Source: a virus. Taken from it: DNA of 27,520 nucleotides. The stretch lies in IMG/VR virus record IMGVR_UViG_3300017758_000091, positions 1 through 27,520 of that record; one strand, 5' to 3'. Below the pieces are notes generated by a model. That model was not told where the DNA came from and did no database searches. It saw nothing but the letters and a program-made list of their open reading frames with translations. Shown here one piece after another: positions 1,015 to 22,200 of the stretch; the first letter of the stretch is position 1; each line of letters starts with the position of its first letter. The position numbers and the translations under genes were made by a program.

Positions 1015-2082
1015 ATGCCAGAAAATTTTAAAGCCTTAAGATTTCCACAAGATTTGGGAACTAACAGTTCACCGAACTACATTACTTTTATGCCTGAAGA
1101 GTTATCTTATGAACCAACTAATTACGGCAATAAAGCAGATAGAGGTTCAGGTGGTTTATTCGGAAAATCAGACGGTGGTTCTGCTTTTGATATAGACCTA
1201 GGTGCAGGAAATCCATTTAAACAAATAGGTAAAGCTATTGGTGGCCAACTAGAATCTATTGCTGATGCAGCTGTAGATACAGTGAATGCAATTGGTAGTA
1301 TATTTGATGGTGGTTCATTATCAGCAAAAGCTACAAAGTTTGGTAAATTAGTAAATGGTAAAGTTAAAATAGGAGACTTTATATTATCATCTGGTATAAA
1401 ATCAGAAGCACCTCAAGTAAGACAACAAGGTTCAATATCATTATATTTACCAGATAGTTTAAATGCTACTACATCTGCAGATTATAGTCAAAAAGATATT
1501 GGTGCAATGGGAATGGAAGCAATCAAAGCTGCCAAGAAAGCTGGTGGCGGTAGTATAGCTGATGCTTTTAATCAGACAAAATCAGATTCTAAATTGGCAG
1601 AAGGTGTTTTAGCTGAAGTTGTAAGACAATCAGGACAAGTAGGAGATACAATTGCTATTGCAGAAGGACAAATAGTAAATCCATATTCATATCAAGTATT
1701 TGGCGGCATGGCTCATAGAACTTTTAATTATACATTTGATTTAGTCCCACGAAATTCAAGAGAAGCTGAAGAAGTTAAAAGAATTTGTGATATGTTTTTA
1801 TATTATATGCTACCATCTAAAGGTGGTGGAAGTGTAAACACTGGTAATGCTGGTGAACACTTTCTTAAAATGCCTTCACAATGGGACATAAAATACTATA
1901 GAAACGGTAATCTATTAACTCATCATCAACAACCTTTTAAATGTTTCTTATCATCTTGTGATATTCAATATGGTGGTGATGCTGAAAACTTTTTACATGA
2001 AGATGGTTCACCAGTAAAAACATCTTTAACATTAAGCTATATAGAAATAGAACCATTAATTCAAAACAAGGTGTCTGAATAA
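1015..2082 (+). CDS. 48: Baseplate tail-tube cap/initiator, T4 gp48 family
   Basis: The 355 residues are close to T4 gp48 (364), which sits between the baseplate hub and the first tail-tube ring. The diagnostic region is FGGxxxRTFxYTFDLVPR (about residues 225-245), equivalent to YGGxxxRTxxFTWDLTPR in T4, followed by a helix and a C-terminal beta segment ending in a Leu/Ile-rich strand (SYIEIEPLI). The middle holds IxLYLPDSL (about 140-150), like the ILLPRS segment of T4. The N-terminal third is Gly/Ala-rich and variable. It is the first gene of a coupled + operon; its TAA overlaps the ATG of gp53 (TAATG at 2080). No gp54 partner gene is seen in this window. Confidence 0.82.
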   Translation: MPENFKALRFPQDLGTNSSPNYITFMPEELSYEPTNYGNKADRGSGGLFGKSDGGSAFDIDLGAGNPFKQIGKAIGGQLESIADAAVDTVNAIGSIFDGGSLSAKATKFGKLVNGKVKIGDFILSSGIKSEAPQVRQQGSISLYLPDSLNATTSADYSQKDIGAMGMEAIKAAKKAGGGSIADAFNQTKSDSKLAEGVLAEVVRQSGQVGDTIAIAEGQIVNPYSYQVFGGMAHRTFNYTFDLVPRNSREAEEVKRICDMFLYYMLPSKGGGSVNTGNAGEHFLKMPSQWDIKYYRNGNLLTHHQQPFKCFLSSCDIQYGGDAENFLHEDGSPVKTSLTLSYIEIEPLIQNKVSE

Positions 2083-2735
2083 TGTACTTCAAACAATACA
2101 ATAGAATAGTATATGAATTTTCTGACGGTGTAAAAAGAGTTATGACTGATATGTCTATACGTCCTAAAATGAGAGATGAGATTACTACAAATTCTGATAA
2201 CTTTGAATTTTATTCTATCAAAGACGGAGATACACCAGAAAATTTAGCTTATGATTATTATTCTGATACCGGTAAACACTGGGCTATCATGCTTGCTAAT
2301 AATATAATGAGTATCTATAATGATTGGCCAAGAGACCAACAGCAACAAGATGAATTTTTATTTCAAAAATATAAAGTACAAACTGACAGTGATGGTGTTT
2401 CACAAACTCTTACAAAAGTACAAGTAATGGAATTCATACAGTTTGTAGGTACAACAGGTAATAATTTTAAAAGCTCTGTGACAGGAACAAGTGTTGTGAC
2501 TAAACCTAGACATTTTATAGATGCAAATAAAAAAGAATATTCTTATGATTCAATAGTAAATAATACAACAGGAAAAGATGCAAATGGTATAGGAATTACA
2601 TATCCTACAGTAGCTCCTGTGTCAATTCAAACACATGAAGAAGAGTTAAATGAAACAAAAAGAAATATTATTATTCCGACATCAAAAGTAGTAGACAAAT
2701 TGATTGACGAAATACAAGAGTATATAAATGGCTAG
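2082..2735 (+). CDS. 53: Baseplate wedge protein, T4 gp53 family
   Basis: This 217-residue protein (T4 gp53 is 196) is a wedge component that links wedges to the hub. The recognisable part is a LysM-like segment at about residues 43-80: YSIKDGDTPENLAYDYY followed by HWAIMLANNI, matching the T4 pattern YxIKGxPxPEELAxxxYxxxxxxWVLLxxN. A conserved NDW and a helix with repeated Gln follow. It carries one Asp-Ser-Asp (VQTDSDG, about residue 102), the only such site in the hub proteins. It starts in the stop of gp48 and overlaps gp27 by 8 bases, so all three are probably translated in a coupled way. Confidence 0.82.
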   Translation: MYFKQYNRIVYEFSDGVKRVMTDMSIRPKMRDEITTNSDNFEFYSIKDGDTPENLAYDYYSDTGKHWAIMLANNIMSIYNDWPRDQQQQDEFLFQKYKVQTDSDGVSQTLTKVQVMEFIQFVGTTGNNFKSSVTGTSVVTKPRHFIDANKKEYSYDSIVNNTTGKDANGIGITYPTVAPVSIQTHEEELNETKRNIIIPTSKVVDKLIDEIQEYING

Positions 2736-3916: not shown

Positions 3917-5197
3917 ATGTTAGACGGAAAAATGTTCTGGTTCACTGGCGTTGTTGAAGACAGAATAGACCCTATGAAGATGGGCAGAATAAAAGTAAGA
4001 GTACATGGTATTCATACTGATGATAAAACACTTTTACCTACTAAAGATTTACCTTGGTCTCAAGTAGTGATGCCTATTACGTCTGCATCATTAGCAGGTA
4101 TAGGTACATCAGCAACAGGTATTTTAAATGGTTCATGGGTTGTTGGTTATTTTATTGATGGTAGTGATATGCAAGAAAATATTATTCTTGGAACTTTACC
4201 TTCTACACCTTATGCAAAAAATCCTGAACTAGGATTTCATGACCCGAAAGGTGCACATCCTAGAAGAAGTGATGGTGTTGATACACCTGATTCAGCTCTT
4301 CAATCTTCATATGAAGCCCACCCATCATATGTTAATAAAGTAGACCAAAGACAAACAAAAGTAGAAACAGCAATACCACCATTCTTAAAAACTGTAAGTA
4401 TTGATGAAGAAGATGATGCTAAGTTTACAAGAAATACTTGGGATATGCCAGAAATAATGAAAGGTAATACACCAATATATCCATTCAATAAAGTGACAGA
4501 AACAGAATCTGGTCATGTATTTGAAATTGATGATACTAAAAATAATGAAAGAATATCTATGTATCACCAATCTGGTACTAATTATGAAATTCAAAATGAT
4601 GGTGATGTTGCTACTACTATTAGAAAAGATAACTACACAGTTATTTTTGGAAATGATAAGATTTATGTAAAAGGTAATGTAGATATTACTATTGATGGTG
4701 ATAAAAAAGAACTTGTAAAAGGCAATTATCATCTTGAAGTAGAAAAAGACTATACAATGAATGTAAAAGGCTCAAGAAACTCAGCGGTAGGTGGCAATGA
4801 ATTAATTGAAGTAGGTCAAGCATTTTCTAGCAATGTAAACGAAGACTATACTCAACGTGTAGGAGGCCATGAAATACGTATTGTAGACAAATCAAGGAAT
4901 ACAACAATTGGTGATTCTGAGGACCTTTCTGTGGCCACGAATATGAATGAAATTGTAATGGGTAAAAGAGATATGTTTACTTCCGCTATCCATACACAAA
5001 CAGTCACTGATAAATTAAATATATCAGCATTAGGAGACCTTACAGTAGGTACTAAAGCTAACCATATAGAAACAATTAAAGGTACACGTACAGAAACAAT
5101 TACTGGTGCAGTTAATGAACAATATGGTGATGGACAAATAACCAATGTCACAGGTGATGTTGATATTGATACAACTGGAAATATATTGTTAAACTAA
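3917..5197 (+). CDS. 5: Baseplate spike protein, gp5/VgrG-like, no lysozyme domain
   Basis: This 426-residue protein is the membrane-piercing spike under the hub. Residues 1-95 form the OB-fold of gp5 and VgrG: FxGVVEDRxDPxxxGRIKVRV, a PWSQVVMP segment and GSWVVGYFxDG. Residues 190-225 hold the conserved ESGHxFExDDT...HQSGTxxEI motif that opens the triple-stranded beta-helix. About 235-426 is the helix itself, built of short repeats with alternating Val/Ile and Gly-Asn turns (KGNxDITIxGD and so on). T4 gp5 is 575 residues with a lysozyme domain between OB-fold and helix; here that space (about 100-190) is a Pro- and Asp-rich linker with no catalytic Glu/Asp/Thr pattern. The spike is therefore a mechanical needle, and cell-wall cleavage must come from another protein. 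Confidence 0.86.
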   Translation: MLDGKMFWFTGVVEDRIDPMKMGRIKVRVHGIHTDDKTLLPTKDLPWSQVVMPITSASLAGIGTSATGILNGSWVVGYFIDGSDMQENIILGTLPSTPYAKNPELGFHDPKGAHPRRSDGVDTPDSALQSSYEAHPSYVNKVDQRQTKVETAIPPFLKTVSIDEEDDAKFTRNTWDMPEIMKGNTPIYPFNKVTETESGHVFEIDDTKNNERISMYHQSGTNYEIQNDGDVATTIRKDNYTVIFGNDKIYVKGNVDITIDGDKKELVKGNYHLEVEKDYTMNVKGSRNSAVGGNELIEVGQAFSSNVNEDYTQRVGGHEIRIVDKSRNTTIGDSEDLSVATNMNEIVMGKRDMFTSAIHTQTVTDKLNISALGDLTVGTKANHIETIKGTRTETITGAVNEQYGDGQITNVTGDVDIDTTGNILLN

Positions 5198-6169: not shown

Positions 6170-6771
6170 AAAAATTTACTGACATATTAGAAGAAGAAGC
6201 TGGTAAAGGACTTACAGTCTTTGATATTGATGACACTTTGTTTAAAACTTCTGCTAAAGTAAAAGTTAAAAATAAAAAAACAGGTGATGTGAAAGAGCTT
6301 CCACCAGTACAATATAATAAGTACAAATTAAAGAAAGATGAAGAGTGGGATTTTGGTGAATTTAAAAATTCAAAAATGTTTCAGCAAACTGCTATGCCAA
6401 TTGGACGTATGGTAAAAAAAGCAAAAGCAATTATAAGAAATGCTACTAGAAAAGGTTCAAAAGTAATTATAATTACAGCTCGATCTGATATGGATGATAG
6501 AGATTTATTTTTAGATACTTTTAGAGCTCATGGTATAGATATAGACAAAGTACATGTAGAAAGAGCTGGTAATCTAGGTGGTAGTGCCGCTAGTGCTAAG
6601 AAAAAGATTTTTCAAAAGTACTTAGGTTCAGGTGACTTTGAGAGAGTACGATTTTTTGATGATGATAAAAATAACTTAAAAAGCTTTCTTTCACTAAAGA
6701 AAGAATATGATAAAGTAGACTTTTCTGCTTTTCAAGTACAAAACAACGGTTCCGTTAGGAGTGTAAGATAA
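6166..6771 (+). CDS. HAD-superfamily phosphohydrolase-like protein
   Basis: The four HAD motifs can be read in 201 residues: motif I FDIDDTLF (nucleophile D20, general acid D22, T24), motif II IIITARS (T104), a lysine cluster K145-K147 for motif III, and motif IV FFDDDKNN (D165-D167). Between motifs I and II is a basic insert of about 75 residues that could act as a small cap. The protein is soluble, without a signal peptide. HAD proteins of this size occur in T4-like phages; substrates are usually unknown but include nucleotide and nucleic-acid end phosphates. The ATG overlaps the stop of the PAP2 gene (ATGA), and the stop overlaps the PAAR gene (TAATG), so it is made together with another phosphatase and spike parts. 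Confidence 0.8.
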   Translation: MKKFTDILEEEAGKGLTVFDIDDTLFKTSAKVKVKNKKTGDVKELPPVQYNKYKLKKDEEWDFGEFKNSKMFQQTAMPIGRMVKKAKAIIRNATRKGSKVIIITARSDMDDRDLFLDTFRAHGIDIDKVHVERAGNLGGSAASAKKKIFQKYLGSGDFERVRFFDDDKNNLKSFLSLKKEYDKVDFSAFQVQNNGSVRSVR

Positions 6772-7073
6772 TGAGCTTAGCTGTCACTAGAAAAGATGAT
6801 AAACATGTAGGACATGCAAGTCCTACACCAAGTCCATTTCATCAAACTGCTTATACAGGTGGTTCTTTAAATGTATTTGCTAATGGTAAAAATGTAATAC
6901 GTGGAGAAAGTACAGATTCAACTAGTTGTGGAGACCCTGCAGTTGGTGGATCAAGTAAAGTTTTAGTAAATGGTAAAAAGGTACATAGGAAAACTGATGC
7001 AACTGGTGGTCATGGTAGTTGGGTTGCAAATGCTTCTAATGAAGGTTCACCAGATGTATTTGCAGGTGGGTAA
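6771..7073 (+). CDS. PAAR-like spike tip protein (gp5.4-like)
   Basis: This 100-residue protein fits the PAAR family, which caps the tip of gp5/VgrG spikes with a small metal-binding cone (T4 gp5.4 is 97 residues). Typical features are a His-rich start (H12, H15), GHASPTPSPFHQTAY, paired VxxNGKxVxR strands (NVFANGKNVIRGES and KVLVNGKKVHRK) and a Gly-rich GGHGSW end. H15, C53, H72 and H81 are candidate ligands; PAAR proteins use three His and one Cys for a metal ion, but which residues do so here is a guess. It lies in the same coupled operon as the gp5-like spike, separated by three accessory genes. Both junctions are TAATG. Confidence 0.8.
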   Translation: MSLAVTRKDDKHVGHASPTPSPFHQTAYTGGSLNVFANGKNVIRGESTDSTSCGDPAVGGSSKVLVNGKKVHRKTDATGGHGSWVANASNEGSPDVFAGG

Positions 7074-9165: not shown

Positions 9166-9619
9166 TTGTATTAAGATGATTAAACACCATGAAGGTGTTA
9201 GATATCAGCCTTATCAAGACCCCATTGGTTTATGGACAGTTGGAGTTGGACATTTAATTGGTAATGGTAAATCTTTACCAAAAGAATGGAATAAGACATT
9301 TACCTCAGAAGAAGTTGATGACATTTTAAAAAAAGACCTTGCAAGGTTTGAAAGTGGTGTCAATACATTAATTCCTATTACAAGACTTACACAAAATCAG
9401 TTTGATGCTTTAGTATCTTTTTCTTTTAATGTTGGCTTAGGTAATCTACAAGCATCCACACTCAGACAAAAATTAAATCGTGGTGATTATGAAGGTGCAG
9501 CAAATGAGTTTCCTAAATGGAGAAAAGCTGGTGGTAAAGTTTTAAATGGACTTGTAAGAAGAAGAGCTGATGAAAAAGCTTTGTTTATGTCTGATGTTAT
9601 TCACGCAATAGGTTATTAA
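9137..9619 (+). CDS. e: T4-type lysozyme / endolysin (GH24)
   Basis: This enzyme cleaves the glycan strands of peptidoglycan during lysis. With the start at 9137 the catalytic triad is E19-x8-D28-x5-T34 (HHEG, YQDPIG, LWTVGVGH), the same spacing as E11, D20 and T26 of T4 lysozyme. The C-terminal lobe has QFDALVSFSFNVGLGNL and GLVRRRADEKALF, as in the family. Its 160 residues are close to T4 (164). The frame is open further upstream to 9050, but that would add residues read out of frame from the previous gene, so 9137 (29-base overlap) is chosen; 9176 is too close to the catalytic Glu. There is no signal peptide, so export depends on the holin. Its stop overlaps that of the convergent Fe-S gene. 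Confidence 0.9.
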   Translation: MSNPTKTSNNCIKMIKHHEGVRYQPYQDPIGLWTVGVGHLIGNGKSLPKEWNKTFTSEEVDDILKKDLARFESGVNTLIPITRLTQNQFDALVSFSFNVGLGNLQASTLRQKLNRGDYEGAANEFPKWRKAGGKVLNGLVRRRADEKALFMSDVIHAIGY

Positions 9620-9921
9620 ACAGAAAAACTTTCACCACATCCACAAGACATAGATGCATTAGGATTTCTAATAACAAGTTGTGAGCCAGAAAATTCTTGC
9701 ACATAATCTACCTCTGAACCTAATATATGTAATTCAGCTATTTTATCAACAACTAATACATCTTCAATTAGTACACCATCATCTTCACTATTAGTAAAAT
9801 CCCAAGTGTATTCAAATCCTGCACATCCTCCACCTTTGATAGAAAGAAATGCATACTTTTTTTCTTGAGTAGCTAATTTTTCTTTAATGTAATGCTTGGC
9901 TGTAGGAGAGATACTAAGCAA
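9616..9921 (-). CDS. A-type iron-sulfur cluster carrier (IscA/ErpA/HesB-like)
   Basis: A-type carriers bind a [2Fe-2S] or [4Fe-4S] cluster and pass it to apoproteins. The family's three cysteines are present: C33 in GGGCAGFEY and C93-G-C95 in SCGCGESF, numbered from the chosen start, with the usual spacing of about 60. The strand LGSEVDYVQEFSGSQLVIRNPNA matches the family's DYxxxLxGxxFxxxNPNA. The chosen start is a TTG at 9921 with AGGAAAG four bases before it; this gives 101 residues, near IscA (107), and begins at the family's usual first strand. A GTG at 9951 would add 10 residues without resemblance and a longer overlap. It overlaps the stop of the tail-fibre gene upstream by 8 bases, so it is expressed with the fibres. 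Phage-borne carriers have been reported in marine viromes. Confidence 0.85.
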   Translation of the reverse strand: MLSISPTAKHYIKEKLATQEKKYAFLSIKGGGCAGFEYTWDFTNSEDDGVLIEDVLVVDKIAELHILGSEVDYVQEFSGSQLVIRNPNASMSCGCGESFSV

Positions 9922-10492
9922 AAGTCTTTCCTGTAAATTGTGCTGTTCCACCGGTATTTTCTATTGTAAATGTATTAAATGAAGATACAGTTGTACCACC
10001 GAGTGTGAAGTTAGCTGTTGTCAAATTTGTAAATGTAGACTTACCTGTAGAAGTAAGTGTAGAACCAGAGTTCATAGTTAAATTAGGTATGGTGACATTT
10101 GAGTTAAATGTAATTGTTCCAGAAGACTTGACATTAAGTGTTCCTTCAACATCTACATTTCCTCTGAGATATGTTTTACCTATTTGATTTGTTGTACCAT
10201 AGTTTGTCCATACATCATCAGAATCAGTACCATAGAATATTGCAGTACCATTAAAACTATCTGAATCAGAACCAAGAAAAATACCACCCTGTTTTATATC
10301 AATAGTAGCACCAGTAAATACTGCATTTCCTACAACACCTATATTACCATTGAATATAGAATTACCTGTGACTTCTAAACCAGGTAATGTGATGCTTTGA
10401 GGATTTTCAAAACCTGTTAAATCACCAGCATCATTAAATGTTAATGAACTGATTATATCTGCGTGTTTTCTTGTTTTACTCTTCTGTGGCAT
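9914..10492 (-). CDS. Tail-fibre-like structural protein, 192 residues
   Basis: The protein begins with MPQKSKTRKHADIIS, a basic tag shared with three other proteins in this block. The rest is low in aromatic residues and made of short beta repeats with Gly-Asn turns (TGNSIFNGNIGVVGNAVFTG, GNVDVEGTLNV, STGKSTFTNL), typical of phage fibre shafts or beta-solenoids. Two Asp-Ser-Asp sites occur (about residues 75 and 89). There is no enzyme motif. It is the last fibre gene of the - strand block, and its end overlaps the Fe-S carrier gene. Before its ATG stands ATTAAATA-GAAT, like the arrangement before the 703-residue protein. Fibre identity is inferred from composition, repeats and neighbours. 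Confidence 0.65.
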   Translation of the reverse strand: MPQKSKTRKHADIISSLTFNDAGDLTGFENPQSITLPGLEVTGNSIFNGNIGVVGNAVFTGATIDIKQGGIFLGSDSDSFNGTAIFYGTDSDDVWTNYGTTNQIGKTYLRGNVDVEGTLNVKSSGTITFNSNVTIPNLTMNSGSTLTSTGKSTFTNLTTANFTLGGTTVSSFNTFTIENTGGTAQFTGKTFA

Positions 10493-10505
10493 ATTCTATT
10501 TAATC

Positions 10506-11645
10506 CTAACTTGGGTCTATAAACTTTATTGTAGCAACTGTTGAACCAGCTGCATTTATTATAGTTAAGTTATACTTACTAGGTATAGAAACGTTTGTGG
10601 AGCCTATAGTGAATCCATCACTATCTACAGTCATTATATTATGACCACTACCAGAATGGTTTGCTGTTAGTGTGCCATCTGAATCTCTAATATCAGATAC
10701 ACTTAATGATGAATTTCTTACTATTGTTCCACTTGAATTATGTATAGGTGCAAACTTAAATGTGCCAGTTCCTGTTAATGTAGCACCTGTCATATTTACA
10801 TATGATTTATGTCCTACTTGTTTTCCTTGTATAAATGAGCTCATTGATTGTTCATTTTGAGCACTCATAGTTTTAGAAGAACCTGTATTTCCTGAACTAT
10901 TATATTCAAATGCAAAACCATTATCTGAATCTGAATCATGTCCTAAAAATCCTAAATTCACATCAGTTGATTTGAATAAAGTTCTACCTTGTAAGTCTAA
11001 AGTACCAAAACTTGTGAATACAGTGTTTTCAGAATCATGTACATTACCAGCAGTTTTAGGATATCCGAATTGCAATGGTGTATTTTCACCTGATACTCTT
11101 GCAATATTCATAGTTTGACCACCATGTTTTCTACCAAACATGATACCACCACGAGTTTTAAACCTACTTATTTTTCTACCTTCAAGATAAGCAATTGCTT
11201 GTGAACCTGTTCCATGTCCAAAAATCATATCAGAATCTAAAGGATATTTTCTATGGCGGTTTGTAAAGTCATCTAACAAATAACCACCTATATCTTCTCC
11301 AAGAAAGAAGTTTCCTTTAAAAGTTGTAAGTGAATTATCTGAGTCACTACCAATGATTGCATCTTGAAATGGTCTAGCAGATGGTAGATTAGTAGATGAA
11401 AATCTGTTAAAGTGGTCTGAATCTGGTCTGTTATTTAGTGGGAATAATAGATTTCTTGATGTTCTTGTAAAATGTGTACGGTCACCATCAGTACCTACAT
11501 TAATTGTACCTAGTTTTAATGATGTATTATTTTTATTACCGAAAAGTATTGCATCAGAGTCAGTTGATAAAAAGAACTTTCCACCAGGACCGTTTGGGTT
11601 TACCGCATTTGCGATTTTTCTAGTTTTTGAAATTTTATCTGACAT
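10506..11645 (-). CDS. Tail-fibre-like structural protein with DSD motifs, 379 residues
   Basis: It starts with MSDKISKTRKIANAV, the same KTR tag as its neighbours. The body is Gly, Ser, Thr and Asn-rich and predicted to be beta. Eight Asp-Ser-Asp/Glu sites are spread along it, for example STDSDAI (27-33), RPDSDHF, GSDSDNS, PLDSDM, GHDSDSDNG and TVDSDGF. The C-terminus (NLTIINAAGSTVATIKF) has alternating hydrophobic residues like a fibre tip strand. No known receptor-binding or hydrolase domain is visible. It lies 6 bases after the end of the 134-residue gene upstream, with AGGAT before its start, and 13 bases before the 192-residue gene, so the three form one unit. Function as a fibre or fibre-associated protein is inferred. 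Confidence 0.62.
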   Translation of the reverse strand: MSDKISKTRKIANAVNPNGPGGKFFLSTDSDAILFGNKNNTSLKLGTINVGTDGDRTHFTRTSRNLLFPLNNRPDSDHFNRFSSTNLPSARPFQDAIIGSDSDNSLTTFKGNFFLGEDIGGYLLDDFTNRHRKYPLDSDMIFGHGTGSQAIAYLEGRKISRFKTRGGIMFGRKHGGQTMNIARVSGENTPLQFGYPKTAGNVHDSENTVFTSFGTLDLQGRTLFKSTDVNLGFLGHDSDSDNGFAFEYNSSGNTGSSKTMSAQNEQSMSSFIQGKQVGHKSYVNMTGATLTGTGTFKFAPIHNSSGTIVRNSSLSVSDIRDSDGTLTANHSGSGHNIMTVDSDGFTIGSTNVSIPSKYNLTIINAAGSTVATIKFIDPS

Positions 11646-11651
11646 ATCATC

Positions 11652-12056
11652 CTAAAAATTAAAGATTCTTGGCAAGTCACTCTTATTACCATTTACTAAA
11701 TCTACAGGTCCATTAAAGGCATCTCTTACAGCACCTGTTGAAGCACCACCGCCTCTTACAAGACCACTTCCCCACGGTCTAATTTGTGTATTTCTTGTAT
11801 TGTTTTCTATTCCACCACCAGAACCAAATCCTCCAGCACCTAATATATTTCCGTTAACTACTACTTTAATATAGTTAGCATTTGGAAATTCAGGAATTGT
11901 GAGAGCTGCTACACCAGGTAATGATGTAATATTGATACCTTCAGGCACTTCAATTACTACGGATGTAGCATTGTTTCTTTCTTGTTCTGAGGGTTCAAGC
12001 AGAAAACCTACTTGGTCTGAAGTTATTTTTTTATAGTATTGAGTAAGTACATGCAT
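11652..12056 (-). CDS. Glycine-rich small protein in the fibre block (possible adhesin)
   Basis: The chosen start (ATG at 12054-12056) follows the stop of the previous gene by one base and gives 134 residues. A longer frame reaches 12128 but lies inside the upstream gene and looks like read-through of it. Residues 1-70 form a beta domain (VVIEVPEGINI, LPGVAALTIPEF, YIKVVVNG). Residues 75-85 are GAGGFGSGGG and about 100-110 WGSGLVRGGG, so there are two polyglycine loops. Glycine-rich loops framing variable segments occur in receptor-binding adhesins such as gp38 of T4-like phages, but there is no further similarity I can point to. It lacks both the KTR tag and Asp-Ser-Asp motifs found in most of its neighbours. 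Confidence 0.6.
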   Translation of the reverse strand: MHVLTQYYKKITSDQVGFLLEPSEQERNNATSVVIEVPEGINITSLPGVAALTIPEFPNANYIKVVVNGNILGAGGFGSGGGIENNTRNTQIRPWGSGLVRGGGASTGAVRDAFNGPVDLVNGNKSDLPRIFNF

Positions 12057-12057
12057 T

Positions 12058-12498
12058 TTACCCTGCCGATGCTTCAGAGAAGAACCATTTACTTCCGTCA
12101 AAAGTTCCTGAAGCCATCTTTGCAGCATTGCCTAATGATGTTCCTTTAGCACTGGTTCCCCAATCTATTGTTAGTGTACCGTTAGAGACTATGGATAATT
12201 GTGAACCAGCTATCCAACCTGCAGTAGGTACTGTGACAGTGCCCACGCCTGTATGAATTACTGTTGTGACAAAACTTCCAGCAGTGACACTATCATTTGA
12301 TGTTAAACTTTGTACACTTCCTAGAGAGCCAGTCATAGATAAACTATTAAACGCTCCATCACCAGCACTTACATTTCCACTTACTGTCAAAGTGTTTGAT
12401 GTAATACCTTGTGTAATGATATTCGTTATATTAGCATTCGCATCTTGTTGTACTAAATTTGGTAATTCTGCGAATCTTCTAGTTTTTGACTTTGCCAT
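12058..12498 (-). CDS. Short tail-fibre-like protein, 146 residues
   Basis: The protein begins MAKSKTRRFAELPNLV, another copy of the KTR tag, followed by QDANANITNIITQGITSNTLTVSGNVSAG, a repeat-like beta stretch of the kind found in marine phage fibres. The last 60 residues form a compact Gly/Trp-containing domain (AGWIAGSQLSIVSNGTLTI, IDWGTSAKGTS, GTFDGSKWFFSEA), which resembles the small C-terminal tip domains of phage fibres. It contains no Asp-Ser-Asp. The ribosome site is strong (AGGAG, five bases before ATG), and a late-promoter octamer stands upstream. It probably builds a short fibre or decorates the baseplate; receptor binding is an inference. Confidence 0.65.
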   Translation of the reverse strand: MAKSKTRRFAELPNLVQQDANANITNIITQGITSNTLTVSGNVSAGDGAFNSLSMTGSLGSVQSLTSNDSVTAGSFVTTVIHTGVGTVTVPTAGWIAGSQLSIVSNGTLTIDWGTSAKGTSLGNAAKMASGTFDGSKWFFSEASAG

Positions 12499-12512
12499 AT
12501 TTTCTCCTACTA

Positions 12513-12520
12513 TATTTATT
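12513..12520 (-). promoter_or_regulatory. T4-type late promoter octamer before a short fibre gene
   Basis: On the - strand this reads AATAAATA, 14 bases before the ATG at 12498, followed by an AGGAG ribosome site. It overlaps the last codons of the 703-residue gene upstream. The spacing would give a leader of about nine bases. Confidence 0.5.
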
Positions 12521-14630
12521 ATCCAGACTGTCGCTTAAACCAGACTTGTACATTCATTTGTATTGGGTCAATTGGATTAGAACTAGCATCCCACGTACGT
12601 ACTCTGATTGCTCTATTGTTTGGATTTGCAATTAATGGTTTACCACCAAAGACATCTATTGTTTTACCAGTTTCTGAATCGGCTCCTGGACCAGGTGCTA
12701 CTGCATTTGCGCCTTGAGCATCTATTGATGAAAATATAGGTTGACCCTGTGGTGCACAAGTTGACACTGCCATGGACATATAGAATCCATTTGTATCATT
12801 TACTGGTACTACTTCTGAATCTAATAAGAAGAAATAAACACCTTCTGAATGTCTTGAATATTTTAGTTGATCTGAATCAAATCCATAAGTAGCTCTATCA
12901 ATAATCTTATTAGGATTAGGACCATTATCTGAATCAAATGAAACTCTCATCCAAGCTGATGTTAGTGGTGTTTCTTTAATTTGGTCAGAGAATTGATGTG
13001 TCCATTGACCACCAGAATATACTAGTGCTTCACCTATGCTTGGTTGTTGACCATCTACAGCCTCATCAACATTTGATAATTGACCTAAAGTACTTACTCC
13101 AGCTGTTGGACCACTAAATGAGTATATAGCTACAAAGTCATTAACATTAAGTCTAGATGGGAACAATATATCATTTCCATTTACTTGATATTCTAAGACA
13201 GGTGTTTGTGATAATAATACACCATTTAAAAATACTAGTACATTGAATGGGTCATTTGATGTTTGTAATACTGGTGAACAATCTACTAAACCTGTAGCAA
13301 ATCCTGGGTGGTCTGAATCATTTACAGTAAATGTATGTTCTAATGTTTGGAATGCTTCGGAAGGTAATCTGTTTCCACCTAATTGGTTTGATACGTTTCT
13401 TATCCATACAGCTGATAATTCATCTGAATCTTTTAAGAATTGGTCTGAATCAAATGCTATTACTCTAGAAGTTTTATATGTATTTACTTGGTCAGAATCT
13501 GAATCCCAGAAATAAAAGTCTCCTTGTTTTTGAGATAAGTTAATACCATTTAAGAAGATAAGAGGATTACCACCAACTCTTGAAACAATTAAATCAGAAT
13601 CACTGTAAATATCTGAATCAATCATTCTAAATGTTTGGTGTGTACCATTAGCACTTAAATCAGCTCTTCTTGATTTACGCAGAACTACAAAGTCTGAGTC
13701 GGCAAATCTAAAGTTCTTATAAAAGTGAGCTATAGTTTCATCAATAGGTGATATAACTGATACTTCATCATTTGCTTTTAAACTACCATAAAACTTAATC
13801 GCATCTGCTGGACCTGATACTACTTGGTCTACATCTTTTGTTGTGACATTTGCAAGTATCTTATAATCAATAATTGCATACTTGTCGGAATCTGAATCTC
13901 TTGTAGATGTACCAGCACCAGTTGGAGATTGACCATCACCAAATGCATCTGAATCCACTGGCTGTAAGTGACCATTTACAAATACTAAAGCATTTGCATT
14001 TGAAATTACTTTTGAAAAACCTATTTTAGTATCTGAATCTGTAATAGCTTGTGGTGAAACCTGTGCTGATTGAAAGTCAATAGTAAAATTACCAGTTGCA
14101 TCAGGGTCTTGTGGTTCATACTTATTACCTGTCCATCTTAAATACTGTCCAACTGTAGGTCCTTTATCAGCATTCATATCGCTCATAAGCCTTGTAGCCA
14201 TCTCAGCTTGTAATTGTGCTAATTTAGGATGATAATTACTATTTACTTTATCTAAATCATTTCTACCTTTTGCAATTACTGCATCTACAACTGCATCTAT
14301 TAAATCACTATCAAAGTGTTGTCCTGCACGTAAATTGACTGTTGCTGCTGTATCTACTGCTACATTTCTATTAGCATCTTTTTGTACTTTATCAAATACA
14401 AGTTTATCTTTAATTTTTGTAGAGTGTCTGGTTTCAATTGTAGGATTTGCTTGGTCAGGATTTACAACAAATATATCACTGTCTTTTCCAGAGTTATAAC
14501 TAGAATTATCTCTTTTTACAGATAATGTGGTAAATGTTTCAATTGTATTATCACTATCAATACGTGATTTATTTCCATCTACAACAAAACCAGCTCCTAG
14601 TTTTGATAAATCTCTTGTCTTAGTTCCCAT
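12519..14630 (-). CDS. Large tail-fibre-like protein with FLNG modules and DSD motifs, 703 residues
   Basis: The N-terminus MGTKTRDLSKLGAGF carries the KTR tag. Three beta modules opened by a hydrophobic strand and NG turn are visible: LVFVNGHLQ (215-223), LIFLNGINL (357-365) and LVFLNGVLL (465-473). Such FLNG modules recur in phage fibres. Two short segments, GQYLRWTGNKYEP (about 161-173) and GEALVYSGGQW (about 533-543), look like the L-x-Y/W-x-G-x-x-W motif common near fibre repeats. There are about 15 separate Asp-Ser-Asp sites plus two Asp-Ser-Glu. The C-terminus (residues 600-703) is a beta-rich domain without DSD after 653. No enzyme domain is visible. Its ATG follows the stop of the 768-residue gene by 12 bases. 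A role as a main fibre subunit is likely. Confidence 0.7.
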   Translation of the reverse strand: MGTKTRDLSKLGAGFVVDGNKSRIDSDNTIETFTTLSVKRDNSSYNSGKDSDIFVVNPDQANPTIETRHSTKIKDKLVFDKVQKDANRNVAVDTAATVNLRAGQHFDSDLIDAVVDAVIAKGRNDLDKVNSNYHPKLAQLQAEMATRLMSDMNADKGPTVGQYLRWTGNKYEPQDPDATGNFTIDFQSAQVSPQAITDSDTKIGFSKVISNANALVFVNGHLQPVDSDAFGDGQSPTGAGTSTRDSDSDKYAIIDYKILANVTTKDVDQVVSGPADAIKFYGSLKANDEVSVISPIDETIAHFYKNFRFADSDFVVLRKSRRADLSANGTHQTFRMIDSDIYSDSDLIVSRVGGNPLIFLNGINLSQKQGDFYFWDSDSDQVNTYKTSRVIAFDSDQFLKDSDELSAVWIRNVSNQLGGNRLPSEAFQTLEHTFTVNDSDHPGFATGLVDCSPVLQTSNDPFNVLVFLNGVLLSQTPVLEYQVNGNDILFPSRLNVNDFVAIYSFSGPTAGVSTLGQLSNVDEAVDGQQPSIGEALVYSGGQWTHQFSDQIKETPLTSAWMRVSFDSDNGPNPNKIIDRATYGFDSDQLKYSRHSEGVYFFLLDSEVVPVNDTNGFYMSMAVSTCAPQGQPIFSSIDAQGANAVAPGPGADSETGKTIDVFGGKPLIANPNNRAIRVRTWDASSNPIDPIQMNVQVWFKRQSG
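13212..13988 (-). repeat. Three FLNG beta modules inside the 703-residue fibre protein
   Basis: Modules start at 13988, 13562 and 13238 (reading the - strand), each with a strand of the form L-(V/I)-F-(V/L)-N-G followed by a turn and one or two further strands. A fourth copy (VAVFLNGVLQ) lies near the C-terminus of the next protein upstream, at about 14809-14838. In modules 1 and 2 the turn region carries DSDSD, while module 3 has VNGND at what looks like the same place. Confidence 0.6.
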
Positions 14631-14634
14631 ATTC

Positions 14635-14642
14635 TATTTATC
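14635..14642 (-). promoter_or_regulatory. Octamer four bases from the ATG of the 703-residue gene
   Basis: The - strand reads GATAAATA, then GAAT, then ATG. A T4-type late promoter here would start transcription at about the first base of the start codon. An AGGA lies before the octamer, too far for a usual ribosome site if it serves this ATG. It may be a leaderless promoter or chance AT-rich sequence. Confidence 0.3.
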
Positions 14643-16949
14643 CTATTTCTGATAAGTTGTATATTTTACTGTTATGACATCTGAAATTGGAACGTTAACA
14701 GCAAAGTTAAGTGTAATCACTCCAGCGGCTGATACAGCTGATGATGATATATCTACAGTATGATTTACGGCTGCTGTACCAAGTTTATTTTGTGATGTTG
14801 AATTCATTTGTAATACACCATTTAAGAATACAGCTACATCAGTATTTGTAGGTGGATGATTTCCTTTAGGCATAGTAAATTGGAATGATGAATAACTGCC
14901 TTCTGAATCATGTACAATATGTTCTTGTGTAATTGTTTTTAATTTACTTCGTAATGTACTAAGTTGAGTTTTAAGGATATCACTATCATCTCTCATTGCT
15001 TGGATAGCACCTATAGCAGTACGTTTTTGTAAATCAGAATCTGAATCAAATGTTTGTATATAGTTTTTACGTAATGTTGATTTTAAATTTGTACCACTGT
15101 TTAAATCATCTGAATCTAGCCTTTGTACTCTATCTAAAATTAAATTGTCAAATCTTACTCTTAGGTCAGAATCTCTGCCCATAGAATCTGAGTCAGATGC
15201 TACTGCACTTTCAGATATTCTATTAAGTAAGTGTGTAAATGTTCTTGAAACTAACTCAGAATCTGAATCCATTTTAAGAATTTCTTTTCTAGCAACACTT
15301 TGTATTAAACTGTTTTCTGAGTCTTGATTTATAAGTTGATTGATAACTATATCAGTTAATCTATTTTTTATTGCAAGGCCATCATCTGAATCTGAATCAA
15401 TAGCTCTCATAACAATATCATTTGCTATTGTAATTCTATCAGAATCATTCATAGAAGTTAGTATACTTCTTCTAAATTTTTCTAAATCACTATCATTACT
15501 TCTGACATATTCACTTAATGGCTGCCATATTTTAGACCTATGCAATTTATTATCTGAATCTACATCTCGATTAAGATAACCAAGCATTACTCTTTCAGTA
15601 AAGCTCTTATTAATTTGTTTAAAACGTGTTAAAAATCCTGGATGATAATTATAATAATTTGTATGTTTCTTTTTACCACCGCTTGTAGCTCTGGTTTTGT
15701 AATCAGAATCAGTTAATAACATTAATCTATCAGAATCTGTAGCTCCAAGTCTTAGACCCATGAATCCCCAGAAGAACTGATTTCTTCTAACAAGCAATGA
15801 AACATAATCAGAATCTTCTAAAGTATTAATTAGACCTGGATTGACATGTTTATCATAATTTAAAGAATAACCCTGTGTATCTGAATCTACAAGTACACCT
15901 TTACCAAAGTTTGCATCAATAGTACCTGATGCACCAGCATTACCAGAGAATTCTGAATCTCTTGCAATCCAGTCAAAGTGTAAGTACTCGTAAAATAAGT
16001 TAAAGTTTGTAGCATGCATTTGAGCATTTCTTCTAGTAATCTTATCTTTTACAGTAAATAATCTAGTAGCAAGCAAGTTTTGACCATATTGTCTAGTGTG
16101 ACCAGCATCTGTATAGTCAGAATCTAGCATAATAGCTGTAATTACTGTATCAGCTAATTTTCTTCTAATGTAATATAATCTATTTCTATTTGTATCAGAA
16201 TCTACAAGGTTATTTGTATCTGAATCTACACTTATAGCACCATAAGATATATCTCTGTTGAATGGTACTAAGAATTTAGTAGTGACACTAGAATTAAAGC
16301 CTAAACCTAAAGCTGTATCGTCAAAATAATTTAATAAAGATTCTAGTAAGTTTGTAGCTGTGGGTCCATCAGAATCTAGATGTGCTGGTAAGTTTTGAGC
16401 AACTGATTTAAAACCTTCACTATCATTTTTTACTACATTTAGTTCACCTTGCATTCTTCTAAGTTCAACACGGTCAAACTTTAAAAAATGTAATAGATAA
16501 CCTTTTAATAATGTTAATATACTTACCCATTTAGCTGACCCATCAGAATCTGCAGTTAATACTGCATGAGGTGCACCAGTATATTGATTACCAGCTCCAT
16601 CATCATAAGCTACTGGAATAGCATCTAAGAAATTTCTTACCTTAGCCCATTCAGTATCTCCTATGTTAGTATTATTTTCGATTGCACTTGAACGACTCCA
16701 AGTGTTTGGCTTACCGAAAAATTGTACAAGTGAATCTGAATCTACTCTTTGATCAATACCATTGATAGTATCGGAGTCCATATTGGCGGCTATGTATTTG
16801 ACATAGGCTTTTAAGTCGTCAGAGAGACGTCTTTCATCCATTGCGGTAATGCCGCGCTTGTCATATATTTTAGAGACTTTTGCCCATTCAGAACGTAAGC
16901 CAGTTACGTCGGTCTGAAAAGGTCTTATCTCGGAATCGTTATAAGCCAT
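14643..16949 (-). CDS. DSD-rich virion or fibre-attachment protein, 768 residues
   Basis: This is the first gene of the - strand block. Residues 1-120 are helical and include EWAKVSKIYDKRG and a second EWAKVRNFLDAIP, which looks like a degenerate repeat. The middle (about 130-650) is helical to mixed with many Arg residues. The last 90 residues are beta and include a FLNG module (VAVFLNGVLQ), ending in VITVKYTTY. There are about 21 Asp-Ser-Asp and six Asp-Ser-Glu sites, one per 28 residues, often at the boundary between predicted helices (LEDSDYV, LLTDSDYK, MNDSDRIT, TFDSDSDLQK). It lacks the KTR tag of the following fibres, so it may be the proximal or attachment protein they join. I do not recognise a family for the body. 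Confidence 0.6.
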   Translation of the reverse strand: MAYNDSEIRPFQTDVTGLRSEWAKVSKIYDKRGITAMDERRLSDDLKAYVKYIAANMDSDTINGIDQRVDSDSLVQFFGKPNTWSRSSAIENNTNIGDTEWAKVRNFLDAIPVAYDDGAGNQYTGAPHAVLTADSDGSAKWVSILTLLKGYLLHFLKFDRVELRRMQGELNVVKNDSEGFKSVAQNLPAHLDSDGPTATNLLESLLNYFDDTALGLGFNSSVTTKFLVPFNRDISYGAISVDSDTNNLVDSDTNRNRLYYIRRKLADTVITAIMLDSDYTDAGHTRQYGQNLLATRLFTVKDKITRRNAQMHATNFNLFYEYLHFDWIARDSEFSGNAGASGTIDANFGKGVLVDSDTQGYSLNYDKHVNPGLINTLEDSDYVSLLVRRNQFFWGFMGLRLGATDSDRLMLLTDSDYKTRATSGGKKKHTNYYNYHPGFLTRFKQINKSFTERVMLGYLNRDVDSDNKLHRSKIWQPLSEYVRSNDSDLEKFRRSILTSMNDSDRITIANDIVMRAIDSDSDDGLAIKNRLTDIVINQLINQDSENSLIQSVARKEILKMDSDSELVSRTFTHLLNRISESAVASDSDSMGRDSDLRVRFDNLILDRVQRLDSDDLNSGTNLKSTLRKNYIQTFDSDSDLQKRTAIGAIQAMRDDSDILKTQLSTLRSKLKTITQEHIVHDSEGSYSSFQFTMPKGNHPPTNTDVAVFLNGVLQMNSTSQNKLGTAAVNHTVDISSSAVSAAGVITLNFAVNVPISDVITVKYTTYQK

Positions 16950-16979: not shown

Positions 16980-16987
16980 TATTTATT
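16980..16987 (-). promoter_or_regulatory. T4-type late promoter octamer for the fibre block
   Basis: Read on the - strand this is AATAAATA, 30 bases before the ATG at 16949. It would drive the whole fibre and Fe-S block. Only seven bases separate it from the + strand octamer, so the two late promoters are back to back. Confidence 0.55.
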
Positions 16988-17006: not shown

Positions 17007-17414
17007 ATGGCGATACAAGAGACATTTCAACGAAAAAGTAAATATTTAGACTTTGACTTAAATTTTACAAAACATCCACTTACTAACGATTTAGTAATGA
17101 AAAAAGGTGACTCTGCTATTAATCAAGCTTTAAAAAATATAGTACAAACATCTTTTTATGAAAGACCATTTCAACCGATGTTTGGTTCTGATGCAAGGGC
17201 TTTACTTTTTGAACCAGTTGATAGTATCACCATACAAAATATGAGACGAGTAATCGAATCAGCTATAAAAAACCATGAGCCAAGAGTAAAAGTATTAAAA
17301 ATAGCTATCGGAGATTTAGTTGAAGCGAATGCATACAACATAGGAATTACCTATGAGTTGCTTGATGTAAACACTAATAACGAGGTAAATCTCGTACTTG
17401 AAAGATTGAGGTAA
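17007..17414 (+). CDS. 25: Baseplate wedge protein gp25
   Basis: The 135 residues (T4 gp25: 132) have every family mark: a DFDLNFTKHPLTNDL start (15-29), the ERPFQPMFG motif (52-60) and the EPR motif (91-93) that contacts the sheath in contractile systems, then an IGITYELLDV strand. gp25 links the gp6/gp53 wedge core to sheath assembly and is shared with type VI secretion (TssE). It contains no Asp-Ser-Asp. The gene opens the wedge operon and is followed by gp6 after three bases, with GAGG at its own 3' end as the ribosome site for gp6. Confidence 0.93.
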   Translation: MAIQETFQRKSKYLDFDLNFTKHPLTNDLVMKKGDSAINQALKNIVQTSFYERPFQPMFGSDARALLFEPVDSITIQNMRRVIESAIKNHEPRVKVLKIAIGDLVEANAYNIGITYELLDVNTNNEVNLVLERLR

Positions 17415-17417: not shown

Positions 17418-19232
17418 ATGGCAGACCAAAGACCGGTAGTAGCTAATCCAGATTTTAAAGATATAAAACAAGATATAATTACATATTTTAAAAACGATTC
17501 TACTTTTTCCGACTATGATTTTACTGGTTCAGCATTAAACACACTGGTAGATATTTTAGCATACAATACACATTATAATAACTTAACTGCAAACTATCTT
17601 GTAAATGAGATGTTCTTAGATACAGCTCTTATGAGAAACAATGTATTGTCTATTGCTAAGATGTTAAATTATCAGCCTCGTTCAGCACGTGGTTCAAAAG
17701 GTACAATCACATTAAGAATTCCAAAAGTTGGTGGAGCTAATCTTTATCAACTTCCAATAGGTTCATTATTTACAGCTTCAGATGGAACAACAACATATAA
17801 CTTTTTTACTACAAAAGCATATTCAGTTCAATATGATGCTTCTGAAACAAATGGTACCACAAAAGATTTAGTTGTTGAAATTGTAGAAGGTAATTCTATT
17901 ACTCAAAGATTTGTACCTAATTCATCTAATCTTTCTTTTCCTAAATTTGATTTACTAAATAAAAATATAGACACAAGTACTATTGTGGTTTCAGTAAATG
18001 GTTCTAAATGGACTCCAGTGTCAAATGAAACTCAAGGTACTAATGATGTTAATAATTTAAGTACAATTTATTTTATAGAAGAAACTAGAGACCTTACACA
18101 TAGAATTATGTTTGGTAATGGTATACTCGGCCAAGCCTTAAATGCTGGTGATGAAGTATTAGTTTCTTATATAGTCACAAATGGTTCAGATGCAAATGGA
18201 GTAAATGCATTCACACCTTCAATTGCTGGTAGAAATGATATCACAATAGTGAATACTATAAAAGCTCAAGGTGGTGGAGCAATAGAAACTATTAAAGAAA
18301 TTAAAGACAATGCACCTAATTTCTTTCAAGCACAGTTTAGAGCTGTGACTGAAAATGATTATAAAGCAATTTTGAAAAAAGAATATGCTGATATACAAGC
18401 GTTAAATGTATATGGCGGTGAAACTGTAGGTAAACCAGGTAAAGTTTTCTTTTCTATTAAACCAAAGTCTGGTGATGCACTTACGGCACAAGCAAAATTA
18501 ACTATTACTAGAGATATACTTTCAAAATTTAATCTAGTGACAGTAACGCCACAGGTTGTTGACCCGCAAATTACAAGAATTATAGCAAAAACAATTGTAC
18601 AATATGATGCATCGAAATTAACTACGAGTAAAGAAGTACTTGAAGCAAAAGTTTTAGCACTTTACAATGTACTAAACACTTCATATATTGGTGATTTCTT
18701 AGAAAGTTTTTCAGTATCTAAACTAACACAAGAAATTTTAGACTTAGATAAATCTATAGTATCAGCAAACCCAAGAATAAATTTAAGGTTTGATGTAAAT
18801 GCTAAAAATAGAGTTTTAGATAATGCATCTTTCTCTTTTAATAATAGATTATTTACAGCCCCTTATGCTGGAGAAGCTTCAGTTGGTGGTGTAATAAATT
18901 CAACACAATTTAAAAGGTCAGGTAGAGATACATTTTCTAAATTTATGGATGATGGTAAAGGTGTTCTTAGATTAGTAGACGTAATCGGTGATGATAACAT
19001 AATAGTAAATACAACTGCAGGTACTGTAGACTATGAAACTGGAGAAGTTAATATTAGTGACTTTGACCCAGAAGATTCAAAGATTGGATTCATAGCTATA
19101 CCAGATTCTTTTGATGTACTTACTTCAGGAAATTACTTATTACAAATATCAGTCGGAGATTCAACAGTGATAGCCATCGATAAAAATGATAAAGCTTCAC
19201 TAAACTTGTTTAATGTATCGAGAGCTAAGTAA
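17418..19232 (+). CDS. 6: Baseplate wedge protein gp6
   Basis: This 604-residue protein matches T4 gp6 (660), which forms the dimeric inner ring of the baseplate and is distantly related to gpJ and TssF. The N-terminus is typical: FKDIKQDIITYF, YDFTGSALNTLVDILAYNTHYNN (about 35-57) and MLNYQPRSARGSKGTI. The central GNGILGQALNAGDEVLVSYI (about 230-250) and AITENDYKAI-like segment (FRAVTENDYKAILKKEYADI, about 310-330) are also family marks. No DSD or DSE is found in all 604 residues, although both neighbours downstream are full of them. The stop overlaps the next start in TAATG. Confidence 0.92.
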   Translation: MADQRPVVANPDFKDIKQDIITYFKNDSTFSDYDFTGSALNTLVDILAYNTHYNNLTANYLVNEMFLDTALMRNNVLSIAKMLNYQPRSARGSKGTITLRIPKVGGANLYQLPIGSLFTASDGTTTYNFFTTKAYSVQYDASETNGTTKDLVVEIVEGNSITQRFVPNSSNLSFPKFDLLNKNIDTSTIVVSVNGSKWTPVSNETQGTNDVNNLSTIYFIEETRDLTHRIMFGNGILGQALNAGDEVLVSYIVTNGSDANGVNAFTPSIAGRNDITIVNTIKAQGGGAIETIKEIKDNAPNFFQAQFRAVTENDYKAILKKEYADIQALNVYGGETVGKPGKVFFSIKPKSGDALTAQAKLTITRDILSKFNLVTVTPQVVDPQITRIIAKTIVQYDASKLTTSKEVLEAKVLALYNVLNTSYIGDFLESFSVSKLTQEILDLDKSIVSANPRINLRFDVNAKNRVLDNASFSFNNRLFTAPYAGEASVGGVINSTQFKRSGRDTFSKFMDDGKGVLRLVDVIGDDNIIVNTTAGTVDYETGEVNISDFDPEDSKIGFIAIPDSFDVLTSGNYLLQISVGDSTVIAIDKNDKASLNLFNVSRAK

Positions 19233-22200
19233 TGGCAAAACACATACTGCCAATAATAAAAAAGCAGCTACCGGAGTTCATAAAATCTGAACATCCGAAC
19301 TTCCAGTTATTTGTAGAAGCATATTATGAATATTTAGAACAACAAAACGATAGTGACTCTACATCAGCACTTAATCTTTTTAAAACAGTTCCAAATGCTG
19401 GTGACTTAATTCAAAATGCTGAAGCTTACCGAGACGTTGATACCACACTTACAGAATTTAAAGAATATTTTAGAAGACAATTAACACCTTTCACAATTAC
19501 AGGTAATGCTGTTTCAGATGAAATCATATTTAAAAAAGCAAGAGATGTTTACTTAGCAAAAGGAACTCCAAATGCATTTAAGCTTTTATTTAGAATGTTA
19601 TTTGGAAAAGAAGCTGATGTATTTGAACCAAAAACACAAATCATACAAGCTTCTGAATCTCTTTTTACATCCTTTACACAGATAAAAGCTGAAGTAGTTT
19701 TAAATGAGACTAATTTAGGTGACTTCAATTATGAGTTATCTACAATTAGATTAGATAGTGATGCTGTAGATAGTGATTCATCTGCAAACATACTTACAGT
19801 TCTTGATGGTACATTTACTGGTGTCACAAAAAATAACAATACAGTTCTAACTTTATATCTTACTAAAAATCCTGACTCAGATATGGGTGGAAGATTAGTA
19901 AAAGGTAGAGAAGTAATTTTAAGAGACTCTACTGATACTTCAAAAGTAGTAAAAGTAAAACTTCTTAATCACATTGGTAATACGTCAATTGTAGATGGTG
20001 GAGCTGGTTTTAGAGTAGGTGATAAGTTTTTTGTTAATGATACTGCAAATAGTATTCCAATACAAGTTTCTAAAATACAATCAGGTGAAATTGATAGAGT
20101 CATGATTCGTAACCGTGGTAAAGGTTATAGAGTTGGAGATACTATAGAGTTTGTAAGTCCCGGTGGTGTTGATGGTGCTGGTGCTTTAGGTTTCGTAACA
20201 GCCGTAGATGCTGAAGGTGCTGTCACAGAAATTGATGGAAGTCAAGTGAGATTAGGAGGAACTGGTTATTTATCTGAAGATTTTGAACCAGTAATAGTTC
20301 CTATTATTCAAAAAGGACAATACACACATATACCAGAGCCTTTTATAAGAACAACTGATGGAACTGGATTAGATGCAAGAGGTCTTTCATCAGAGGTAGG
20401 TAAAATATTAGAAGTATCTACACCTCAAACAGGTTTCTTTGATTCAGACCAATTTGGTGTACCTCAAACTGTATCACCCTTTTCAGTAAGAATTGCAAAT
20501 CAAGAGTCAATTGATATTGGAAACGTAGTAGAATTCCAACACTTTTCACCAGATTCAGATGCTGGCAGTATGAGACATGATAGTGAAGTCATAACAATTA
20601 ATTTAAAAATAGAAGACTCTGATGGTATTTGTAATGATAGTGATACTTTATATTGGTCTGGTACAGAAGAACTTGGTACAAACTATTTGTATGAAGGTAA
20701 AGATAATAGTGACTTTAATCTAAGATTTGCTCCAGGTAGTGATCTTGATTCAGATGGAGTTTTATCTAATACCTCAATAATTTTAGGAGTTTCCTATCCT
20801 GGAAACTTTGACAAACATAAAGCTCAGTTTCATAAAAATGGTATTAGAAGTATGCAATATGCTCAAGGTAAATTTCGTTCAACCTTTGCATTCGGATTAA
20901 ACAATCAAACAAGAATTGATGACCATTATGTAAACTATTCATCAAACAGGAAATACTTTTTTAAGAGTGGTAATAAATTTAAACTAATTAAAATGCCAGT
21001 GGCGTGGGATTCAGAAAATTATAACTGGAAAATAAGAAGTGTTAAGTATTATGATTCTGATGGTGACAGTGACTTTATAGAAAGATGGAAATCAGATTCA
21101 GAGTTTGATATTCAAGGTGTCACACCAACTTATTATTCTTGGAATGAAGGTGAAACAGGTCCACGTAAATGGGCAAGATGGGTAAGTGCTTGGGCTGGTG
21201 CGGAAGAACCTATAACAAATATAGATTCAGATGGAAGAGGAAATTTACGAAAAACAGCATCTATCACAGGAGCCGAACCAGGATATCTTGGTGCTACAGC
21301 CACAGCTCGTTGGGATAAGATTACATCAACCACAAGAGTTGCAGGTAAACCTGGACAAAAATATGGTTATCCTTCAAACGTTCGTGGTAATGATTCTGAA
21401 ATTTATGATAGTGATAATAGTTATCATTTTGGTCAAATAACTGATGGTAGTTCACATGGAACTTGGAGTCCAACACATTCTTTTGGAAGAGACAGTGATA
21501 GAACAACTGTAGCATTAGACTCAGATTCTTTTAATTCATCGACTTTAGGTCATAATAATGGAAACCAAATCTTTAATGTTTTAGGAGGTTCTGGTGTAAG
21601 TGGTTATGCTAGTGTTCCTATTATTCAAAACCCATTACCAAGACATGCTGTACAGGCTTTTCCAGTTAAAATTAATGACCCAAGACTTTATAGATTAGAT
21701 AAGTTTCATATTAACCAATTACAAAATTCAGCTGCAAATGATTCAGAGCTAACACAAACTTATACTTCACAAGTTTTTGTATCAGCTGATGAAGCAGATT
21801 CAGATGGTAGTGGTAAAGGTACATCTAAAAATATTGGTACTTTTGTAAGTACTGGTTATGGTGGTGTAGTCACAACTAAATCTACTGACGGTACTAGTTT
21901 TACATTAAGTAAAGCTGATAGTGAACAAGTTGTATCAACACTAAATGTCTCTATGAAGTTTCCAAATGATAGTGATATTGATACATTTGATAAGATACCT
22001 CATGCATTACTTAGAGTTATAAAAGTAAATCCACAAGATGGTTCAAAACTTTCACAAGAAACTTTCCCTGTATCTAACACAGTTGTACAGTTTGGTTCTC
22101 CAAAAATTAATGTTAAATTTCCATTAACAACAGAAACAGAAAAAACATTCTTAAATGAAAGTGGATTCTTAAGTTCAGTATCAGGTGGTGTACTTAGAGA

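Follow-up and report, generated by a model that had tools for sequence, protein, structure and literature searches.

Why should a gene for an A-type iron-sulphur (Fe-S) carrier (ATC; IscA/SufA/ErpA family) close a run of tail-fibre-like genes in a phage? The usual view of viral Fe-S carriers is that they help host metabolism, and ATC or sufA/erpA genes of marine phages are already in print (PMC5332604, PMC10580990, PMC9038755). The present gene resembles these in being an ATC of a marine viral genome, the published T4-like genomes carrying radical-SAM or cas4 Fe-S genes as well; it differs from what these sources describe in that it ends a fibre unit. The arrangement raises the question of which protein receives the cluster, and whether that protein belongs to the tail.

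The carrier gene and the fibre-like unit

The window, by which we mean the whole stretch of DNA that was analysed, is an entire virus record of 27,520 nt (GC 33%) and is probably a fragment of a T4-like phage genome. Its plus-strand baseplate genes, namely the tube cap, a gp53-like gene, a tail protein, the gp5-type spike (Gp5_OB; 3917..5197, 0 Cys) and a PAAR tip protein (6771..7073; 1 Cys, 5 His), extend to a phage lysozyme (PF00959; 9050..9619). Plus-strand genes resume at 17007 with a gp25-type baseplate wedge ORF (17007..17414), named from synteny, followed by a gp6-type wedge subunit (17418..19232) and more wedge genes; the gp6-type product matches annotated baseplate wedge proteins of the Methylophilales phages Melnitz (35%) and of Pelagibacter phage HTVC008M (34%). 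The gp5 and gp25 genes form the upstream and downstream borders, respectively, of an accessory interval. Between both baseplate blocks, the minus strand holds six fibre-like ORFs, from 16949 down to 9914, with the ATC last. These are 14643..16949 (768 aa, 0 Cys), 12519..14630 (703 aa, 2 Cys), 12058..12498 (146 aa), 11652..12128 (158 aa; phrog_10745, unknown function), 10506..11645 (379 aa, 0 Cys) and 9914..10492 (192 aa, beta-rich, 0 Cys). That they are tail fibres is something we infer. None of the six matched Pfam, five of the six were without a PHROG match, the three that were searched against 50,697 phage records had no match there, and the model of 9914-10492, all-beta with a pLDDT of 44, was too weak for a fold search.

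The ATC starts 8 nt inside the last fibre-like ORF, whose stop lies at 9914-9916, and runs in the same direction, as a preliminary description of this DNA had stated; its 3' end overlaps the convergent lysozyme ORF by 4 nt. The description had also spoken of a gene fused into the tail-fibre unit, which holds for the transcription unit and not for the protein, the two being separate overlapping ORFs. Its view of the gene as an intact A-type carrier was borne out. The open frame (9616..9921, minus strand) comprises 101 codons from a TTG at 9921, and its product scored 38.5 bits against Pfam PF01521, above the curated cut-off of 26.3. All three cluster cysteines are in place, Cys33 in the GGCxG region and Cys93 and Cys95 in a C-terminal CGC. 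Matches in phmmer included SufA (2d2a, 2.6e-11) and HI1723 (6.7e-17), and the predicted model, with a pLDDT of 81 that falls below 50 in the segment carrying the last two cysteines (90-101), matched IscA (1r94, 3.4e-7) and SufA (2d2a, 1.2e-6) in Foldseek. The frame thus encodes an intact-looking carrier that is like bacterial IscA/SufA/ErpA in Pfam family, cluster cysteines and predicted fold; in PHROGs it falls in phrog_17776, of unknown function. Since pN/pS against four relatives (0.15, 0.29, 0.32 and 0.35) indicates purifying selection, a chance frame is excluded.

An alternative start, GTG at 9951, would add 10 residues and was rejected because the codon is not kept in a close relative, L004. 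The TTG is preferred as a Shine-Dalgarno-like AGGAAAG (9926..9932, minus strand) lies just 5' of it within the fibre-like frame (AGGAAA is kept in L004), as the product then begins where IscA/SufA alignments begin, and as TTGCTTAGT at the start is kept in all four relatives compared.

Two other features of the window may be recorded here. The tripeptide DSD is packed into its structural proteins, with 87 copies in eight proteins against about 3.6 predicted from residue composition. DSD-rich stretches lie at 2082-2735 (plus), 9914-16949 (minus) and 19232-27518 (plus), and also occur in L004 and L188; the copies use many synonymous codons and occupy mostly conserved positions in L004 (two proteins aligned). 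Per 1000 aa, the rate is 12-16 in this lineage, 3-5 in L110, L222 and L210, and 0.15-0.4 in most other T4-like loci checked. In addition, a lone minus-strand gene among the plus-strand baseplate genes (445-987) encodes a protein of head-closure type (phrog_218) that also matches endonuclease families weakly.

Inheritance of the carrier and of its position

The same ATC site was found in eight other viral contigs. The overlap of fibre gene and ATC is seen in L003, L004, L006, L011, L012 and L013, and that of ATC and lysozyme in L002, L003, L004, L011, L012, L013 and L105, the others of the eight ending at a contig edge in each case. The ATC start, the overlap and both neighbours are therefore features kept within the lineage. 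In L004, a contig of 152 kb, the ATC is 87% identical and the fibre order is the same. A more distant relative, L110, has a lysozyme at 73% and the same baseplate order and lacks the ATC: the site holds a 290-aa ORF with no similarity to window proteins, and the 46.9-kb record gave no match to PF01521.

An alignment search for ATC relatives yielded at least 599 candidate stretches, 566 of which were confirmed. The best 80 of the 566, together with relatives from an earlier search and the window, make up 50 non-redundant viral groups (95% identity), and because of this choice the group counts given below describe the relatives nearest the query. In a tree built on 115 columns, with many poorly resolved forks and 14 cellular rows found mostly through a phage-like pattern, all 52 viral rows fell on one side of a branch (100/97) separating the cellular rows. 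By its sequence, the ATC is thus placed in a virus-specific clade of marine T4-like phages. This clade has an invariant Trp40 and a near-invariant Glu37, whereas of the 14 cellular rows none has Trp40 and two have Glu37; compared with bacterial IscA/SufA/ErpA the viral proteins have a shorter loop, and the cellular relatives found are just 32-41% identical. In the alignment Cys33 is present in 52 of 52 viral ATCs, and Cys93 and Cys95 in 51, the remaining row being gapped there. In INPHARED the ATC matches fell, by our reading of the contigs, on uncultured giant phages or on contigs carrying genes of bacterial type, and on no T4-like isolates.

The window's lineage forms a seven-row clade (100/99) within a 15-row group (99/93), the other members of which adjoin SNase or PhoH/PDDEXK genes, except for L270, in which the ATC lies about 8.5 kb from gp5. 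Position labels changed 15 times on the tree versus 45.8 times when shuffled, so the position of the ATC appears to be inherited within lineages and shifted between them. Among the matches listed, 19 of the 50 groups had a tail gene alone within two genes of the ATC, 7 an Fe-S gene alone (ferredoxin, radical SAM or SPASM-like), 2 had both and 22 neither; L002, whose contig ends at the fibre, and L006, in which fibres are visible, were set as tail-linked by hand. The tail neighbours among these matches were gp5, gp53 and hub genes, and a giant fibre gene directly downstream. Tail linkage as a constant trait of the whole family was rejected, since the sister clades are not tail-linked. The linkage to fibre genes that the preliminary description had proposed to follow in relatives is consequently constant within the lineage and differs between ATC lineages, the latter being one of the two findings it had named as speaking against its own reading.

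Late-promoter octamers and timing

For cyanophage S-PM2, NATAAATA has been reported as the late promoter, and cyanophages are reported to carry early and late promoters on one gene in some cases (PMC2984593). For pelagimyophages, late-promoter prediction is reported to fail, and their structural operons are reported to consist of structural or hypothetical genes only (PMC7029224). In the window, AATAAATA occurs in 7 copies, 6 of which lie at most 60 nt ahead of a gene on the same strand, a placement for which 2.9% of positions qualify. One copy (16980..16987, minus strand) precedes the first fibre-like gene. Another (12513..12520, minus strand), 22 nt before 12498, is the nearest upstream of the carrier and is conserved in all four relatives examined; a variant octamer, GATAAATA (14635..14642, minus strand), precedes 14630. 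No AATAAATA stands directly before the window's ATC. As TATAAATA with one mismatch occurs at chance level in the window, just the exact octamer is informative; a sigma-70 scan of the window gave fewer matches than shuffles, and a terminator scan about as many.

Late expression of the carrier, which the preliminary description had assumed, we grade as likely. The mark of a late gene, NATAAATA or TATAAATA upstream, is found for the ATC in the AATAAATA copies before the fibre genes at 16987(-) and 12520(-), assuming read-through. The octamer itself favours structural genes: in the 152-kb relative it stands before 20 of the 73 ORFs of the structural half, compared with 9 of the remaining 117, and across the ATC loci, among the matches listed, it precedes gp25 in 23/23 and the tube cap in 16/16 cases, versus 0/14 for RNase H and 0/10 for SNase. 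At the ATC start, NATAAATA was present in 20 of the 50 groups (among the matches listed); random positions had it in 2.4% of cases, and 163 other gene clusters in 15% on average. When each group was represented by a single member, the octamer preceded 18/50 ATCs (among the matches listed) versus 15/127 control clusters (Fisher p 3.7e-4), and 34/46 (likewise among the matches listed) versus 56/109 when co-directional runs were counted and contig edges omitted (p 0.007), p-values that overstate independence since the groups share ancestry. As the octamer occurs before the ATC even in groups without a nearby tail gene, late timing rather than the tail looks like the shared trait.

In L032, L041, L047, L054, L085 and others, the octamer often lies 13-15 nt before the ATG of the ATC, which leaves almost no leader and no space for a usual ribosome-binding site. 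A limited literature search returned no account of late-promoter context or timing for viral ATCs in the texts accessible. If ATCs are late in most lineages, as the promoters suggest, one can ask in a specific and testable way which late protein requires a cluster, and a late ATC, if true, would bear on phage iron use in iron-poor oceans.

Candidate recipients of the cluster

The explanation that we favour, and consider reasonably probable, is that a virus-specific carrier takes clusters from the host SUF/ISC machinery to Fe-S enzymes of the infected cell, above all phage-encoded ones, and is made late by read-through from the fibre genes. The carrier would pick up its cluster from a host SUF or ISC scaffold and hand it to late or still-active Fe-S enzymes, mainly phage-encoded ferredoxin and radical-SAM proteins. 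Lying last in the fibre unit, at its 3' end, the gene would be transcribed late by read-through from the fibre late promoters, and the overlap with the fibre-like ORF may aid its translation; related phages would obtain the same timing via their own late promoter or a place behind gp5. Most likely, then, the ATC supplies the virus's own Fe-S enzymes rather than the tail.

As no Fe-S enzyme was recognised in the window itself, candidate clients were read from a relative. The 152-kb L004 contig encodes an 88-aa bacterial-type ferredoxin with nine Cys (137539-137805) and two radical-SAM proteins (PF04055) above the Pfam cut-off; these proteins of a close relative would be the most likely clients. 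Co-occurrence was assessed in 28 hand-picked records, 13 with and 15 without an ATC, which were unmatched for length and kinship and in which several ATC-bearing records stem from one phage or from very near ones (G001/G002, G010/G016 and G011/G012/G017). In this set ferredoxin (PF13237) was present in 5/13 records with and 0/15 without the ATC, and radical SAM (PF04055) in 9/13 (38 matches in 1.13 Mb) versus 6/15 (13 in 0.72 Mb), a modest excess. Among the matches listed, 9 of the 50 groups had a ferredoxin or radical-SAM/SPASM-like gene no further than two genes from the ATC, and a ferredoxin adjoins it in four other groups, L028 (on the opposite strand), L063, L082 and L088. This co-occurrence, in a small and unmatched set, fits a carrier for phage Fe-S enzymes, the role proposed for the viral ATC as a known auxiliary gene (PMC5332604). 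In G002, no octamer lay closer than 80 nt to the start of a radical-SAM or ferredoxin ORF; one occurs about 100 nt ahead of the 505-aa radical-SAM ORF.

In L065, L043, L020 and relatives, a radical-SAM ORF (227-252 aa) and a separate ORF that we label SPASM-like (116-128 aa; without a Pfam match) lie near the ATC, and the near-ATC radical-SAM cluster carries the late octamer in 57% of 21 copies.

A serious rival, to which we nevertheless give considerably less weight, is that the carrier maintains host Fe-S enzymes, such as those of respiration and SUF clients, through a long infection and has no special phage client. Viral sufA/erpA genes are treated as auxiliary genes in print (PMC5332604, PMC10580990, PMC9038755), and ATC-bearing records without a PF04055 or PF13237 match exist (G017 and G019, both fragments); against this stand the late timing and the phage ferredoxin and radical-SAM genes near the ATC. 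Somewhat less probable still is a bolder reading of the late timing, in which marine T4-like phages would share a virus-only, late-timed carrier for a dedicated late client. This client could be a protein of the virion or of its assembly, or else a late radical-SAM/ferredoxin system modifying such a protein, and cluster delivery would then be part of particle making.

The preliminary description had suggested that the carrier puts a cluster or iron into a tail protein (a gpL-like tip, PAAR protein or fibre) during late assembly, which we consider unlikely. The starting idea is the link between Fe-S biogenesis and tails seen in lambda, whose tail-tip protein gpL has a [4Fe-4S] cluster (cited in PMC5175280), and it gains from the late, overlapping position of the ATC in the window, from the finding that 21 of the 50 groups among the matches listed have a baseplate or fibre gene no further than two genes from the ATC (for example gp5>ATC>gp25 in L055), and from the late timing common to ATC lineages, which could equally indicate a late virion client. 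The cysteines argue otherwise. As the description had itself observed, the fibre proteins show no clear cysteine cluster: the six fibre-like proteins, 2,346 residues in all, contain 2 Cys. No window protein contains CxxC or HxH, no window tail protein has more than three invariant Cys across the lineage alignments (the maximum being the tube cap), and gp5 has 0-3 Cys in 32 copies. Unlike the gpL case, then, the window has no 4-Cys tail protein, and gpL-like or HxH-type metal sites in it were rejected, as was the PAAR protein as an Fe-S site given its single Cys; a site formed jointly by oligomer subunits that contribute one Cys each, for example the PAAR Cys, may still exist. The iron-binding HxH fibres of the 'Ferrojan horse' are reported to bind iron ions rather than clusters (PMC11705849), and share with this locus the marine phage fibre context, whereas the window proteins are without HxH.

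Outside the window, where the description had proposed to look for conserved cysteines in tail proteins, the lineage's gp26-type hub protein was found to have two CxxC knuckles. The complete Cys4 site was present in 1/3 ATC-bearing versus 11/12 ATC-lacking contigs with gp26; being commoner without the carrier, it does not follow it, and the hub was rejected as a client. Of four named isolates without PF01521, Vibrio phage D506 has the complete site, whereas P-SSM4, Bellamy and S-SKS1 lack it. Gene order points the same way, the sister ATC clades adjoining SNase or PhoH/PDDEXK genes as described above and the ATC lying between gp5 and gp25 in 0/61 gp5-centred loci that cover both. Two of 80 gp5 loci contain an ATC, one of them from the window's own lineage, and the majority of T4-like loci sharing these baseplate genes are without it. 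The case shows that linkage to fibre genes is no evidence for a metal-loaded tail, even if ATCs are not late.

Finally, that the gene is a passenger without current function, retained by chance in the gp5-gp25 interval, which is plastic (64-5488 nt in 61 loci), is very improbable in view of the purifying selection, the very observation that speaks against such a passenger, the three cysteines maintained throughout the viral clade, and the conserved start, overlap and neighbours in the lineage.

Many T4-like contigs have both CxxC knuckles of the gp26-type hub (L101:6932-7639) complete, whereas three cyanophages and two ATC-bearing contigs have NPxT in place of the second.
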